A stretch of 37,679 bases of DNA from the NCBI GenBank assembly GCA_031269245.1, contig JAISZL010000056.1, positions 1 through 37,679 on the forward strand, written 5' to 3'. The position numbers were made by a program, and so were the translations under genes. Below, piece by piece: positions 401-5,206 of this stretch. This stretch comes from Synergistaceae bacterium. GTDB taxonomy: Bacteria > Synergistota > Synergistia > Synergistales > Synergistaceae. Each line of letters begins with the position of its first letter. The stretch's first letter is position 1. The notes below the pieces were generated by a model. The model saw only the letters and a list, made by a program, of their open reading frames with translations. It did no database searches and was not told the origin of the DNA.

Positions 401-567
401 CGATAGAGATATTTTATCCAAGAATGGTGAAAAATGGAATTATAATTGTACACGATTACACAACTACCCTTGGCGCAGGTCTGGCAGTTGACGAACTTCA
501 ACATGAACTAGGATTTGCGGCAGTTCCTCTTGGAGACATGTTGAGTATTGTGATAGTAAAAACTTAG
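394..567 (+). pseudogene. TylF/MycF-like O-methyltransferase, 3' remnant truncated by the IS
   Basis: About 57 residues remain of what looks like a class I SAM-dependent sugar or macrolide O-methyltransferase. The segment E-I-F-Y-P-R-M-V-K-N-G-I-I-I-V-H-D-Y followed by A-V-D-E-L matches the conserved TylF-family region 'lyPrl..GGiiivDDY ... AvdeF', which in the family holds a metal-binding Asp. Here the usual D-D-Y is H-D-Y. The SAM-binding N-terminal two thirds are absent and replaced by the IS. The open frame formally starts at the ATG at 367, but its first residues derive from the IS end. TylF-like enzymes are frequent in surface-polysaccharide clusters, which fits the genes downstream. 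A 66-residue product could be made but would not be a working enzyme. Confidence 0.6.
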
Positions 568-601: not shown

Positions 602-647
602 TTTCTCCAGATGATATCTACGTTTTCTCCGGATAACCTGGAGAAAA
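602..647. repeat. Repeated TTTCTCC motif and inverted repeat upstream of the radical SAM cassette
   Basis: TTTTCTCC (623-630) is inverted as GGAGAAAA (640-647) around a 9-nt loop. A further direct copy, TTTCTCC, sits at 602-608 and can pair with the same right arm. No U-run follows on the + strand, so it is not a canonical terminator. It lies 50-90 nt upstream of the first cassette gene and could be an operator, a leader hairpin or a relic. The rest of 568-695 is AT-rich and shows no gene. Confidence 0.4.
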
Positions 648-695: not shown

Positions 696-2177
696 ATGTT
701 GCATATGAACAAGAATATTTTACTTATATACCCGCCTAAAAGATTTACTGACTCCACAAGGATTATGTATGATAAGGATATAACGCTTGCGCTTTTATAT
801 TTGGGAGGGGGCGCACGTTCTGCAGGAGCCAACGTAAAGTTTTTTGACATGGGTTTGCCCGAAAATTCGCAGGAAAAACTTGATGGAATCTTGGAGGATT
901 TTCAACCATCTGCAGTGGGTATAAACTGTTTATTTTCCGCGGTTTTTCCGAGTGTGCGGATTCTTGCACAGCGGATTAAGAATGTCAGTCCTAAAACGAA
1001 GATTGCCACAGGAGGCATGCACCCAACAATGTTTGGAACTGACATAATGCGCAATTGCCCTGAAATAGATGCAATCTGCATAGGAGAAGGTGACTTGACA
1101 TTTCCTCGTTTGCTGCGCTACTGGTGGGGTGAACTGAATTCCGACGACTTAGACGGCGTTATTATAAGAGTAACTGATAAAGTAACCGAGTATCCGAAAA
1201 AATGCTATATAACAGACCTCGACGGTTTACCTATGCCAGCGTATGATTTGCTGCAAATGGACAACTACCGCACGGACGTGAAAGGTTGGTATAACCCTGA
1301 TAGACTGAAAATCAATGAGGTAGTAATGCCAATTTTGACGAGTCGCAGTTGTCCTAACGCATGTAATTTTTGTTCAATGAGGCTTGTTATGGGACAGAAG
1401 TTGCGTATGCGTAATCCAGCGAGTGTTTTCAATGAAATCAAGTTTTTGCACAACACATATGGGATAAATTATTTCAAAATTCAAGACGATAATTTTACAT
1501 TTAACAACGAGCGCGCTTTGTCCGTATGTCAGCGAATCATCAACAGCGGATTGAAAGTATATTTTGATTTTACTAATGGGTTAATGATTCGCACACTTGA
1601 CTCGGAACTGATTAAAACGATGCGCAAAGCCGGTTTATTAAGAGCAAGTTTAGCGGTAGAAAGCGGTTCAGACTACATACGTAATACCATCATGAGAAAG
1701 AATGTTTCAAAAGAAAAAATTTCAGAGGTATTTCACATTTGCGGGGAGGAAGGCATAATACGTACTATCGTGTTACTGACAGGGATGCCAGAGGAGACAA
1801 GGCGAACAATGCAAGAGACTCTCGAATTTGTCGATATACTTTCCCCTGACTTCTACAGCCATTCATTGCTTAAACCCTACCCGGGAACCGTTTTATTTGA
1901 GCAATGTAAACGTGATGGTTTATTTACTAATGAGATGCAGAATTTGGATAATTTATGGACAGGCGAATTTTTCAAAACAGAACTCGACACTGAACATCAA
2001 CAAATCTTTGTAAAGCCATATTCCATGTCAATCGATGAATTGAGAACCGAATTTTTGAGACTTGATAGCTTTTTAAAATTCAAATGTTCTACTTGGTTAA
2101 ACAGAGTTAAAGAAAATGAAAAGAACACTATTTCGTCGGTCTATACTCGCGAACGAAATCTTTTGCCAATCCTGTAG
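696..2177 (+). CDS. B12-binding-domain radical SAM protein
   Basis: The protein has 493 residues and the two-part architecture of cobalamin-type (class B-like) radical SAM enzymes. The N-terminal Rossmann-like part (about 5-150) begins N-I-L-L-I-Y-P-P and contains G-I-N-C, A-T-G-G-M-H-P and I-G-E-G-D, typical of B12-binding domains in this superfamily. The radical SAM core has its [4Fe-4S] ligands at C219, C223 and C226 (CPNACNFC). K-I-Q-D-D-N-F-T-F, a gly-rich M-P-E-E-T stretch and K-P-Y-P-G-T follow as in BchE/MiaB-like relatives. Relatives methylate or rearrange unactivated carbons; the substrate here is unknown. AAAGGAG at 686-692 could serve ATG 696 (3 nt away) or ATG 705 (12 nt), so the start is uncertain by three codons. 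Codon use is AT-rich like the rest of the cassette and unlike genes beyond 5.3 kb. Confidence 0.85.
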   Translation: MLHMNKNILLIYPPKRFTDSTRIMYDKDITLALLYLGGGARSAGANVKFFDMGLPENSQEKLDGILEDFQPSAVGINCLFSAVFPSVRILAQRIKNVSPKTKIATGGMHPTMFGTDIMRNCPEIDAICIGEGDLTFPRLLRYWWGELNSDDLDGVIIRVTDKVTEYPKKCYITDLDGLPMPAYDLLQMDNYRTDVKGWYNPDRLKINEVVMPILTSRSCPNACNFCSMRLVMGQKLRMRNPASVFNEIKFLHNTYGINYFKIQDDNFTFNNERALSVCQRIINSGLKVYFDFTNGLMIRTLDSELIKTMRKAGLLRASLAVESGSDYIRNTIMRKNVSKEKISEVFHICGEEGIIRTIVLLTGMPEETRRTMQETLEFVDILSPDFYSHSLLKPYPGTVLFEQCKRDGLFTNEMQNLDNLWTGEFFKTELDTEHQQIFVKPYSMSIDELRTEFLRLDSFLKFKCSTWLNRVKENEKNTISSVYTRERNLLPIL

Positions 2178-2278
2178 GGGCAGGCGGCGACGGACAGGGT
2201 AGTCTTCAAGACATGCGGGCGAGTTTTGGCAAATCTTTCTGCCTGCGTAGCTATACACACATGAGAAGGGGTTTCTTT

Positions 2279-3109
2279 GTGAAAAACCATATCACCGAAG
2301 ATATTAATTTATTTATCCTAAATCTCACTTTAACATTGCGCTGCACTTTGAATTGTAAATTATGTGTTGCTGATGTCCCGAAATATTCAGTAAGTCCACA
2401 CTGGACAAAAGAATTCTTATACGGGGCAATCGACAAATGTTTTGCGATTATTAACAGAGTGGAGAGATTTCAATTAAGCGGTGGAGAACCACTTCTGCAC
2501 AAAGATTTTGTCGAAATTTTACAAAGAGCAATGCAATACAGCGATAGGTTCACTTTTTTGGGGATATTCTCTAACGGCGCAATTGTACCCAGCGGAAAAA
2601 TAATAGACCTTATTAAAAATTTTCCCCAGGAGAAAATCAAATTTTATATTTCAGATTATGGGGGATTATCTCCTAAAACCGACAATATTAAGAAGTTATT
2701 GACTAACGAATCTATCCCGTTTGAGGTTAAAACGTATTTTGGCAAGAATCAACATTTTGACGGCTGGATAGATTATGGAGAATACGCTTATCAAGGATAT
2801 TCTCCTGAACACTTTAGAGAGGTTTTCAGTAATTGTGCCGTCAGTAAGATTGGCGGTATTTGGAGTTGTCGATATGGTCAGTTGCATCGGTGCACACGCT
2901 CCGCAAGCGGAATGGATTTGAAAGCCATTCCCGAATCACCATCGGAGTATTTAGATTTATTTGCGGACTGCTCCATAAGCGACCAGAAGGAGAAACTGAG
3001 AAAGATAATGGATTTGCCATATTTAACAGCTTGTTTATATTGCACGGGCGATTTCGGGACAAACAACAAGCAAAAACGTTATCCGGCGGCGGAGCAGATC
3101 AAAAAATGA
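2279..3109 (+). CDS. Short radical SAM protein with probable auxiliary cluster (paralogue 1)
   Basis: The 276-residue protein has the radical SAM ligands C22, C26 and C29 (CTLNCKLC) and the SAM-binding L-S-G-G-E-P-L-L-H. In the C-terminal half are further cysteines in N-C-A-V, W-S-C-R, H-R-C-T and A-C-L-Y-C, which could bind an auxiliary Fe-S cluster as in SPASM/twitch proteins. It ends G-D-F-G ... K-R-Y-P-A-A-E-Q. I chose GTG 2279: AGAAGGGG at 2264-2271 is 7 nt upstream, and this start aligns with the paralogue at 4183, which has nearly the same distance to the first Cys. Its stop overlaps the next start (ATGA), so the genes are coupled. Function unknown; a carbohydrate- or peptide-tailoring role is inferred from neighbours. 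Confidence 0.85.
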   Translation: MKNHITEDINLFILNLTLTLRCTLNCKLCVADVPKYSVSPHWTKEFLYGAIDKCFAIINRVERFQLSGGEPLLHKDFVEILQRAMQYSDRFTFLGIFSNGAIVPSGKIIDLIKNFPQEKIKFYISDYGGLSPKTDNIKKLLTNESIPFEVKTYFGKNQHFDGWIDYGEYAYQGYSPEHFREVFSNCAVSKIGGIWSCRYGQLHRCTRSASGMDLKAIPESPSEYLDLFADCSISDQKEKLRKIMDLPYLTACLYCTGDFGTNNKQKRYPAAEQIKK

Positions 3110-4170
3110 ACATATACCTTAAAATATGGTTGGATAAGAACTTTGGCGATGATTTGATGCTGTATGAAATGGTTGATTTTTTCTCTTCGACTGGATATAT
3201 TTTTTACATTCATTGCAATGAAAAATTTCAAAAATTTTACAATGACTTGTTAAAAAAGTTTGCCAATATAAAATTGATAGATTGCCCACTTAGGGAAATA
3301 CGGAAATATGGGAGAGGTTTCTTCAAATGCGTAGTCCTTCTCGGTGGCTCTACGTTAATGGGAAACAGATATACGGGTTGCTATTATAGATTTCTAAATT
3401 GTCGACTTTTTGATAAATTAAGAAAAGAAGGCACTTTTTACGCAATTATCGGATGTAATACAGGGCCTTTCAAAAATTGCTTTACTGAGTTTTTCGTTAA
3501 AGAGGAACTGCGAAAAGCAAGGCTGATCACAGTGCGTGACAAAGCATCTTTTGATTACGTAAAGAAACATATTGAGGGCAGCGATTGTCGATATTTCCCC
3601 GATATATTATTTGGGATTTCTAAAACGTGTTTGCCGAATTCAAAAAGACAGCTAGGTATATCGGTGTTCAGCGGTGAGCACGAACGAACGGTGTCATTTT
3701 TGACGCAGTTATGCGATGAATATATATCTTATACCGATAATCGCATCAAATTACTGTGTTTTGACGTAGGCAGTAAAAGTGATCTTGCAACTGCCGAAGC
3801 GATACATAAGTCTGTAAGCAGAAAAGACAAAGTTGAAATAGTGAGTCATTCATCTGATTGCAATTATTTAATAGAATCAATTTCCGAATGTGACAGGGTA
3901 CTGGCAATTAGGTTTCATTCCGCAATAATTGCTTCTGTGTTGAATATTCCTTTCTTGCCGTTTTCTTACAGTAATAAAATGCACAATTTTTTATGCGATG
4001 TATATGAGACAGACAAAGATTTCCCTATCGCAAAAGTAAGTTCCTCGTCCGTTCCCGACTTTTTACAACAACTTTTAAATGATCCTATTATACCAAAACC
4101 TAATTGGGGTGATGGAAATATTGGCCATTTCACCGCACTAAAAGAAATTTTGGAAAAATCGCAAGAGTAA
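3106..4170 (+). CDS. Polysaccharide pyruvyl transferase family protein
   Basis: The 354-residue protein has the layout of the CsaB/WcaK-type family (GT-B-like fold). N-terminal K-I-W-L-D-K-N-F-G-D-D-L sits at the usual position of the N-x-G-D-D/E motif. L-L-G-G-S-T-L-M-G-N occupies the GGG-motif position. A-R-L-I-T-V-R-D-K-A-S and, near the C-terminus, A-I-R-F-H-S-A-I-I-A followed by I-P-F-L-P-F-S-Y-S-N-K-M are family hallmarks. Characterised members move pyruvate from phosphoenolpyruvate to a sugar as a ketal in exopolysaccharides or cell-wall glycans. The start ATG 3106 overlaps the preceding stop. The longer open frame upstream (from 2860) only shadows the radical SAM gene. It lies between two paralogous radical SAM genes, which suggests a shared glycan or small-molecule pathway. 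Acceptor unknown. Confidence 0.85.
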   Translation: MNIYLKIWLDKNFGDDLMLYEMVDFFSSTGYIFYIHCNEKFQKFYNDLLKKFANIKLIDCPLREIRKYGRGFFKCVVLLGGSTLMGNRYTGCYYRFLNCRLFDKLRKEGTFYAIIGCNTGPFKNCFTEFFVKEELRKARLITVRDKASFDYVKKHIEGSDCRYFPDILFGISKTCLPNSKRQLGISVFSGEHERTVSFLTQLCDEYISYTDNRIKLLCFDVGSKSDLATAEAIHKSVSRKDKVEIVSHSSDCNYLIESISECDRVLAIRFHSAIIASVLNIPFLPFSYSNKMHNFLCDVYETDKDFPIAKVSSSSVPDFLQQLLNDPIIPKPNWGDGNIGHFTALKEILEKSQE

Positions 4171-4182
4171 GGAGGATAGCCA

Positions 4183-5004
4183 ATGCAAAATTCTGATTTT
4201 AAATTTACGCTTGATAGGAGTGTAATAAATATTACATCTAGGTGCACATTAAAATGTAAGCTTTGTGTGAGTGGATGCCCCTACTTTTCCAACCCTCCAC
4301 ATTACAGCTTGGAAACTGTGAATAGAACTGCGGATAAGTTCTTTCAGATTGTTGACTATGTAGGGTGGTACGAATTTTCAGGCGGCGAACCGCTATTGCA
4401 TAATCAACTCCCTGATATGGTTGAACATGTGATAAAATATTCTAGTCAATTTGAAAAACTGTTAATCATCACCAATGGAACTCTTATGCCTACCGAAACT
4501 TTGGAGAAAGTATTAATTCAACATCGAAATAAAATGCTCATTCAAATAAGCCATTACGGTGCGGTCTCCATAAAAGCCGACGAATTTGCAAAACGCCTGA
4601 AAGACAATAATGTAGACGTTCAGATAAAAAAGTATTTTGGCAATGACCAACACTTCGGTGGTTGGGTAGACTACGGTGATTTCAAACTAAAAAACCGTTC
4701 AGAATCACAGCTCCAGTCAATCTTTTCGCGATGCGGCGCAACTAAAATGAACGGCAACATGACAACTCACAATGGAAAAATCCACTGGTGTGTCCCGTCT
4801 GCAAGGCTAATGACTGTTTTAGGTCACATCCCAGATGCGGATAGCGAATACATAGACTTATTCGACGACACATTATCCGTTCAAGAGCAACGAAAAAAAA
4901 TAGAAAACCTATATTCAAAAAAGTATATATCAGCTTGTAACTATTGTTCGGGTGATTTTGGGTCAGAAACCGCCAAAAGATACCCAGCGGGGGAACAGAT
5001 ATAA
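4183..5004 (+). CDS. Short radical SAM protein with probable auxiliary cluster (paralogue 2)
   Basis: The 273-residue protein is a full-length paralogue of the product of 2279-3109. Cluster ligands are C21, C25 and C28 (CTLKCKLC); F-S-G-G-E-P-L-L-H binds SAM. K-Y-F-G-N-D-Q-H-F-G-G-W-V-D-Y-G is almost shared with the paralogue (K-T-Y-F-G-K-N-Q-H-F-D-G-W). Candidate auxiliary ligands lie in R-C-G-A, H-W-C-V and A-C-N-Y-C. It too ends K-R-Y-P-A-G-E-Q. AAGGAGG starts at the preceding stop codon and is well placed for ATG 4183, so it belongs to the same transcript as the pyruvyl transferase. The paralogues have diverged in the region around 60-140, which may mean different substrates or a heteromeric pair. 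No function is assigned. Confidence 0.85.
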   Translation: MQNSDFKFTLDRSVINITSRCTLKCKLCVSGCPYFSNPPHYSLETVNRTADKFFQIVDYVGWYEFSGGEPLLHNQLPDMVEHVIKYSSQFEKLLIITNGTLMPTETLEKVLIQHRNKMLIQISHYGAVSIKADEFAKRLKDNNVDVQIKKYFGNDQHFGGWVDYGDFKLKNRSESQLQSIFSRCGATKMNGNMTTHNGKIHWCVPSARLMTVLGHIPDADSEYIDLFDDTLSVQEQRKKIENLYSKKYISACNYCSGDFGSETAKRYPAGEQI

Positions 5005-5206
5005 TTTCAACACAAAGGAACCTCTAAAAACCGGCTTTTAAATTGTTTTAGCCCCGACTTCGTAAGCGCCAAATAGCCTGTCACCTGTAAAAAAGAGCGG
5101 AAGAGGTCTCCCATTTCGAGATCCCAAACCTGTTTCCTTGACGGAAATGAACATCAACTCCTGGTGTTGGATGGGCGCCGCACTTTTTACTTGACGAACA
5201 CAGGGT

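Follow-up and report, generated by a model that had tools for sequence, protein, structure and literature searches.

A conserved pair of short radical SAM enzymes and a polysaccharide pyruvyl transferase at the end of a probable surface-glycan tailoring island in a Synergistaceae bacterium

What would three radical SAM enzymes and a polysaccharide pyruvyl transferase, encoded side by side on one strand, make, and do they belong together at all? The genes lie near the left end of a contig from a Synergistaceae bacterium (JAISZL010000056.1; 37,679 nucleotides, the whole of which is referred to here as the window). An initial annotation read them as the tail of an acquired biosynthetic locus, with a modified surface glycan or a small natural product as its likely output.

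Gene order, spacing and flanks

All four genes are on the forward strand with unbroken reading frames, and Pfam agrees with the families first assigned. The gene at 696–2177 encodes a B12-binding radical SAM enzyme (B12-rSAM; 493 residues) with an RSC(x3)C(x2)C motif. It is followed by the genes for two short radical SAM enzymes predicted to be of the twitch type, rSAM_A (2279–3109, 276 residues) and rSAM_B (4183–5004, 273 residues), between which lies the gene for a polysaccharide pyruvyl transferase family protein (PPT; 3106–4170, 354 residues). The start of rSAM_A is probably the GTG at 2279 behind AGAAGGGG, which gives 276 residues as in its orthologue at locus L007; the earlier choice, 2213, is less likely. 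With the GTG start, the gap between B12-rSAM and rSAM_A is 101 nt and comparatively G+C-rich (0.54). PPT starts at the ATG at 3106, in a 4-nt ATGA overlap with the stop of rSAM_A, and rSAM_B follows 12 nt after PPT, preceded by AAGGAGG. Given the revised starts, the overlap and the gaps, the tight unit consists of three genes (rSAM_A, PPT and rSAM_B), to which B12-rSAM is more loosely attached; the close packing first described for three of the genes holds for this trio, with the start of rSAM_A moved.

The G+C content is 0.40 for B12-rSAM, 0.39 for rSAM_A, 0.35 for PPT and 0.39 for rSAM_B against 0.625 for the rest of the window, and the region as a whole is AT-rich as described, with about 38% G+C where the chromosome has about 62%. 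The window spans its contig from end to end, and the left edge lies inside an IS256-family element; the right end of the element occupies 1–402 on the forward strand and encodes a transposase C-terminus [2–370; NF033543, E = 2e-18; PF00872, E = 7e-12]. Because the contig begins inside the element, what had been called an IS remnant may be a mere contig edge. The other flanking feature, a methyltransferase stub, stands. Contig C3 starts with the same IS256 sequence to about position 402 of the window and diverges beyond, which places the stub at 403–567 (forward strand). It comprises about 54 codons from the 3′ end of a TylF/Methyltransf_24-like gene cut by the IS, and is 50% identical to residues 245–299 of a TylF-family enzyme (PF05711, 300 residues; L019:4012–4914). 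The 5′ part was not found elsewhere in the genome assembly. Upstream of B12-rSAM, a terminator-like hairpin with a 10-pair stem (623–647, forward strand) is weak evidence; such hairpins are no commoner in the window than in shuffled sequence, and promoter-like sites show no clear excess over it. The downstream neighbour of the quartet is a large gene, putatively named PilY1-like going by its sequence.

The composition, the IS256-cut methyltransferase and the lack of a close copy in the sampled genomes of the same genus bear out the reading as the tail of an acquired locus. No glucose-1-phosphate cytidylyltransferase was found in this genome and no glycosyltransferase in the first 5 kb of the contig, so that the sugar pathway is missing, encoded elsewhere or lost. 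Nor does the window contain a flagellar-gene neighbourhood with glycosyltransferases, the arrangement of a flagellin-glycosylation island.

Recurrence and genomic context

The initial annotation reasoned that the order radical SAM–pyruvyl transferase–radical SAM with coupled starts, if found in unrelated genomes near glycosyltransferases, would support a pathway, and that an order confined to this strain, with homologues never neighbours elsewhere, would mean chance. The order is not confined to this strain, and the outcome favours a pathway. Orthologues of rSAM_A, PPT and rSAM_B recur together in a Spirochaetaceae MAG and a Lachnospiraceae MAG, which belong to two other phyla (loci L007 and L027). 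Identities to the window proteins are 63, 48 and 57% (the last also given as 58%) at L007 and 52, 36 and 49% at L027. In the radical SAM tree each of the three genomes contributes one sequence to the A-clade (SH-aLRT 100) and one to the B-clade (SH-aLRT 99). Both the order and the 4-nt ATGA overlap between rSAM_A and PPT are common to the window, L007 and L027. At L007 PPT is split across two frames; at L027 an Fe-S aldo/keto reductase gene lies immediately 3′ of PPT, and glycosyltransferases are present. The four-gene observation is real, and the recurrence of the orthologous trio in two other phyla puts it beyond chance. The short radical SAM enzymes and the PF04230 enzyme thus make up a unit that is conserved and, in part, translationally coupled. 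In its exact form the trio is rare: it occurs in one genome out of 397, in one out of 200 and, judged by spacing, in one out of 188, and was seen in three genomes among the matches listed; the scan of the genome collection relied on two short peptide patterns.

The PPT profile finds no match in the viral contigs searched, and rSAM_B none in phage records. Among plasmids, rSAM_B gives only a 31% match in a Nonomuraea record, a locus without annotation that was read as ORFs, and Brachyspira at 25–27%. PPT gives ordinary capsule-type plasmid matches, none adjoining a short radical SAM gene where read.

More widely, Clostridia and relatives of the host carry members of the short radical SAM family, often in tandem, in their surface-glycan islands. 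A PPT gene lies within about 10 kb of the short radical SAM gene in 13 of 22 loci, where 0.24 would be predicted on the basis of those genomes (Poisson P = 1e-18); as the baseline is whole genomes and not other glycan islands, this enrichment shows that PPT and the short enzymes share islands, not that they are specific partners. Flagellar genes adjoin the short radical SAM gene in six of the 22, in several cases flagellin, fliD and fliS. The islands encode glucose-1-phosphate cytidylyltransferase, family-2 glycosyltransferases, FkbM/TylF methyltransferases, aldo/keto reductases and PPTs, and RfbF is above the TIGR02623 cut-off in both flagellar-island examples examined. B12-rSAM is sporadic in such islands (4/22) and never a close orthologue. 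PPT alone was rejected as a marker of the system, other Clostridia PPT-like genes being located in exopolysaccharide loci; further members of the same closer PPT subfamily occur in ordinary exopolysaccharide loci that lack short radical SAM genes. This genome has a second PF04230 gene (contig C80), which does not lie in a glycan locus.

A comparable glycan locus rich in radical SAM genes is on plasmid pBHWA1 of Brachyspira hyodysenteriae, where one distant short radical SAM enzyme (24.5% identity) accompanies other radical SAM enzymes, RfbF and glycosyltransferases, and whose authors suggest LOS modification or glycosylation (PMC4267127). Unlike the window, the stretch read contains no PF04230 gene, and most of its radical SAM enzymes fit a SPASM-type profile instead. 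Apart from this conjecture, no literature linking the short radical SAM enzymes to glycans was found.

The enzymes

PPT matches PF04230 [PS_pyruv_trans; E = 6e-24, 85.8 bits, cut-off 25.3], and R144, R269, H271 and K291 are invariant in 16 PPTs. The R-x-H motif and the spacing from H to K (+20) equal those of R306, H308 and K328 in the ketal pyruvyltransferase CsaB of Paenibacillus alvei, whose PEP-binding residues are R148, R306, H308 and K328 (PMC10435577); the correspondence is made by motif and spacing, without a residue alignment. The PPT model (pLDDT 79) matches UDP-GlcNAc 2-epimerases and GT-B enzymes (TM up to 0.67), indicating a GT-B-like fold. Against the CsaB equivalog TIGR03609, PPT scores 75.9 bits (E = 3e-21), below the cut-off of 213.1, and its genomic context differs from that of CsaB. 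The PPT profile finds no match among PDB sequences.

B12-rSAM has a cobalamin-dependent radical SAM domain architecture (PF02310, 60 bits; PF04055, 68 bits) and reaches the cut-off of no NCBIfam equivalog (best 165 of 575 bits), which places it in no characterised subfamily. Its top solved relatives, over the radical SAM core and without a close match, are AprD4 from the apramycin pathway (E = 3e-16) and TokK, both with a cobalamin domain. Its nearest relative in the phylum (34%; genome G003) lies among housekeeping genes.

rSAM_A and rSAM_B are paralogous, as first noted, with 38% identity over 261 residues (E = 4e-69). The frames at 2213–3109 and 4183–5004 both give Radical_SAM-like Pfam matches; rSAM_A scores 29.0 bits against PF04055, just under the cut-off of 29.5, and rSAM_B 32.7. 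Exactly seven cysteines are invariant across 35 sequences of the family, those of CxxxCxxC, the motif of the SAM-cleaving cluster, and four more towards the C terminus (184, 203, 252 and 255) spaced C-x18-C-x48-C-x2-C. The AF2 model of rSAM_B (pLDDT 92) has a radical SAM fold, with SpeY, the spectinomycin dehydrogenase (PDB: 7WZV, 7WZX, 7X0B), as top match [TM 0.74 over the whole length, E = 3e-13], followed by anSME and BtrN; BtrN is the next match among sugar enzymes. Sequence-profile searching also recovers SpeY (E = 9e-12, including the auxiliary-cluster cysteine region) and BtrN (E = 6e-6) over most of their length. BtrN, the 2-deoxy-scyllo-inosamine dehydrogenase of butirosin biosynthesis, likewise combines CxxxCxxC with an auxiliary cluster that has four cysteine ligands (PMC9012708). 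From their sequences, then, rSAM_A and rSAM_B have the make-up of twitch-type enzymes with a predicted auxiliary cluster. Both relatives are distant, SpeY with 19% and BtrN with 16% identity, and BtrN acts on a free aminocyclitol. SpeY belongs to an antibiotic pathway that is not known to include a paired paralogue or a PPT partner. Pfam detects no SPASM domain, and none of the equivalogs in the curated NCBIfam library covers these short enzymes.

Proposed function and alternatives

The window probably carries the 3′ part of an island for tailoring surface glycans that was gained by horizontal transfer. No sugar-activation gene from its upstream part turned up here, so what the window holds is the tail. 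Most likely the short radical SAM enzymes and PPT work on one surface glycan, the former oxidizing an unactivated sugar alcohol and the latter adding pyruvate. With the 5′-deoxyadenosyl radical, each would take a hydrogen from a sugar carbinol carbon, and the auxiliary cluster would accept the second electron. The product would be a keto-sugar, formed in the manner of BtrN and SpeY with their aminoglycoside substrates; in islands that have a reductase the ketone would next be reduced and the centre inverted, and otherwise it would stay. PPT would add a PEP-derived pyruvate group to the same glycan, and B12-rSAM would either attach a C-methyl group or carry out some other radical modification. 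The upstream part has been cut off in this strain at the IS256 junction, so that what is made may be altered or absent.

The short enzymes could instead be radical epimerases like NeoN or HygY and achieve the inversion of a sugar carbon in a single reaction; we regard this as rather unlikely. They share the twitch scaffold, and HygY becomes a dehydrogenase when one cysteine is lost, going by a title in the reference list of PMC10991966, which would put the two activities one step apart. One-step inversion would also be economical in the 12 of 26 loci examined that have PPT and lack an aldo/keto reductase. The rSAM_A proteins of the window and L007 have two extra cysteines in common, at alignment positions 53 and 195. 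However, no eighth cysteine is conserved in the 35 sequences, no non-ligand cysteine is conserved family-wide or among the three rSAM_A or the three rSAM_B orthologues, and the top match by both fold and sequence is the dehydrogenase SpeY.

It is unlikely, on balance, that the quartet came together by chance from acquired pieces, is now decaying and serves no pathway in this strain, although the island tail is perhaps dead. The methyltransferase cut by IS256, the sugar-activation gene missing from the assembly, the G+C-richer gap before the trio and the ordinary number of promoter-like sites fit decay; the four open frames, the intact catalytic cysteines and PEP-site residues, and a trio order conserved across phyla argue against it.

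Between the two outputs first considered, the surface glycan is better supported than the natural product. An aminoglycoside-like small saccharide is doubtful, even though close solved relatives of all three radical SAM enzymes (SpeY, BtrN and AprD4) come from aminoglycoside pathways. Characterized PF04230 enzymes act on polymers. The related islands contain family-2 glycosyltransferases and flagellar genes, and none of their annotated genes was recognized as coding for a transporter, a resistance function or a cyclitol synthase. A peptide (RiPP) maturation cassette is highly improbable: the radical SAM core resembles AlbA, PapB and HxsC in NCBIfam weakly and far under every cut-off, there is no SPASM domain or obvious precursor gene between the quartet genes, and sugar enzymes are the neighbours in relatives.

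For the family as a whole, the surface-glycan reading extends, tentatively, to pairs of twitch enzymes as an anaerobic sugar-editing system. Such pairs might oxidize or invert unactivated carbons of hexoses that are already in place on flagellin or other surface glycans and that derive from CDP-glucose, no 4,6-dehydratase being involved. Pyruvylation or ketone reduction would be coupled to this editing, and the system would have spread horizontally across at least three phyla. The tandem pairs, their alternative partners (PPT or aldo/keto reductase) and their cultivable hosts, such as Anaerobacterium chartisolvens DSM 27016 at locus L013, make this chemistry directly testable. The radical chemistry now known chiefly from aminoglycoside antibiotics would then, if this is true, be a common route by which anaerobes diversify their surface and flagellar sugars.

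Layout of the gene quartet

The window is one entire contig (G000:C45, 37,679 bases) from a host assembly of 2.34 Mb in 98 contigs. S-layer-homology outer-membrane proteins (L032) give a hint that the host may belong to Synergistota. Four intact genes on the + strand encode a cobalamin-binding radical SAM enzyme (B12-rSAM, 696–2177), two paralogous short radical SAM enzymes (rSAM_A, 2279–3109 and rSAM_B, 4183–5004) and, between these two, a polysaccharide pyruvyl transferase (PPT, 3106–4170). Their G+C content is 35–40% compared with 62.5% in the remainder of the window, in agreement with the initial annotation of four AT-rich genes on one strand. The IS256 remnant and methyltransferase stub it placed beside them are also confirmed: bases 1–402 form an IS256 right end, a sequence with which contig C3 also begins before it diverges, and 403–567 encodes the final 54 residues of a methyltransferase of the TylF type, with 50% identity to positions 245–299 of an enzyme from an Oscillospiraceae island (L019). 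The remaining part of that gene was not found in the G000 assembly. Downstream of the quartet, native sequence opens with a large gene on the opposite strand, PilY1-like by sequence.

rSAM_A probably starts at GTG 2279, eight bases from a good ribosome-binding site (AGAAGGGG), and the resulting 276 residues equal the length of its orthologue in a Spirochaetaceae MAG (L007). The PPT start codon, ATG 3106, lies in an ATGA shared with the rSAM_A stop; the gap from PPT to rSAM_B is 12 nt, with AAGGAGG ahead of rSAM_B. The spacer from B12-rSAM to rSAM_A (101 bases, 2178–2278) is 54% G+C vs 35–40% in the adjoining genes, and is possibly the junction of two acquired pieces. A 33-bp stretch directly 3′ of rSAM_B (5062–5094) has a second copy at C24:57991–58023 (94%). 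The genome holds a third, distant short rSAM (30%) close to the end of contig C72 (L031:9452–10435).

Enzymes of the quartet

The AlphaFold2 model of rSAM_B (pLDDT 92) aligns along its full length with SpeY, the twitch dehydrogenase from the spectinomycin pathway (E 3e-13, TM 0.74); anSME and BtrN come next, and a sequence profile search concurs. Exactly seven cysteines are invariant in 35 family members, CxxxCxxC and four C-terminal residues (C-x18-C-x48-C-x2-C), by sequence the pattern of a twitch enzyme that carries a single auxiliary cluster. BtrN likewise has four Cys ligands to its auxiliary cluster, which is thought to take the second electron (PMC9012708). In NeoN/HygY-type epimerisation hydrogen is returned by a Cys (PMC10991966); no eighth conserved Cys occurs in the family or in either the rSAM_A or rSAM_B orthologue set, which favours dehydrogenation as the likelier reaction.

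PPT matches the PF04230 profile, its predicted model is GT-B-like, and R144, R269, H271 and K291 have the spacing of the PEP-site residues of CsaB, for which mutational data exist (PMC10435577). B12-rSAM carries both B12-binding and radical SAM domains and falls outside every named subfamily in an NCBIfam comparison; AprD4 is its best solved relative.

Recurrence of the trio

The initial annotation had left open whether this order, with coupled starts, is unique to the strain. A scan with both short rSAMs (one genome per species) gave at least 24 loci, two of which have the order rSAM_A–PPT–rSAM_B, both with the rSAM_A/PPT ATGA overlap: L007 (63/48/57% identity to the respective window proteins; PPT split over two frames) and L027 from a Lachnospiraceae MAG (52/36/49%), in which PPT and rSAM_B are separated by an Fe-S aldo/keto reductase and a glycosyltransferase. 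A tree of 53 family members groups the three rSAM_A in a single clade (SH-aLRT 100) and the three rSAM_B in a second (99); the duplication is therefore older than the spread, and the simplest reading is that the trio genes travelled together. The trio's PPT is present in 1/397 Lachnospiraceae and 1/200 members of L007's family, and at full strength in a single genome (G188) among 391 of its class. Among 188 genomes of the host phylum, only the window has two short rSAMs spaced to admit a PPT; in three others the pair is directly or almost adjacent. Thus the exact trio is rare, yet not confined to this strain.

Glycan islands and proposed function

Across 22 loci short rSAMs stand alone or in tandems of two to four copies. 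Their partners are glucose-1-phosphate cytidylyltransferase (RfbF), family-2 glycosyltransferases, FkbM and TylF methyltransferases, hexapeptide acyltransferase, FrhB-like protein, aldo/keto reductase and PPT; four loci (L011, L019, L025, L027) contain a B12-rSAM. A PF04230 gene is present in 13 of the 22 vs 0.24 expected in 398 kb (P 1e-18), the expectation coming from the 40 PF04230 genes counted in those genomes (68 Mb), a whole-genome control that mixes specific partnership with shared residence in glycan islands. In 26 loci, few and related, PPT and aldo/keto reductase show a tendency to mutual exclusion: 12 have PPT alone, 8 the reductase alone, 2 both, and 4 lack the two. In islands L008–L028 and L066–L068 this pattern looks as if they were alternative finishing steps. 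A single ORF joins a short rSAM to a family-2 glycosyltransferase in L009 (8162–9979) and in L025 (6921–8858); such a fusion would put the radical enzyme beside glycosyl transfer.

Six of the 22 loci (L008, L010, L011, L012, L015, L018) have flagellin, fliD, fliS, flaG or fliW within the stretch. In these clostridial flagellar clusters short twitch rSAMs lie inside or beside the cluster with RfbF and glycosyltransferases, apparently an undescribed kind of flagellin-glycosylation island. RfbF is above the TIGR02623 cut-off in both examples tested (L008, L012). A CDP-glucose 4,6-dehydratase could be recognised in none of the six. This suggests unmodified CDP-glucose as the donor, in which case subsequent enzymes would work on the sugar once transferred.

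Twitch sugar dehydrogenases, PPTs and rSAM-rich glycan loci are each already known, the last from Brachyspira pBHWA1 (PMC4267127). An open-access literature search found no paper in which radical SAM enzymes were tied to pyruvyl transferases or to flagellar glycosylation, such absence being weak evidence. The B. hyodysenteriae pBHWA1 block (L091), a published plasmid block tied to pig colonisation, holds a distant short rSAM, several further rSAM genes and RfbF; its rSAMs may also be sugar-modifying enzymes.

Beyond the architecture, conserved order, coupling and island context of the trio, which the analysis shows, each short rSAM would oxidise one hydroxyl of a surface-glycan sugar and PPT would attach a pyruvate group, the sugar being completed by reductases or methyltransferases in islands possessing them. 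Since glucose-1-phosphate cytidylyltransferase was not found in the G000 assembly and the upstream part of the island has been removed at the IS256 junction, the quartet in this strain could be a remnant, or could contribute to a glycan of the host.
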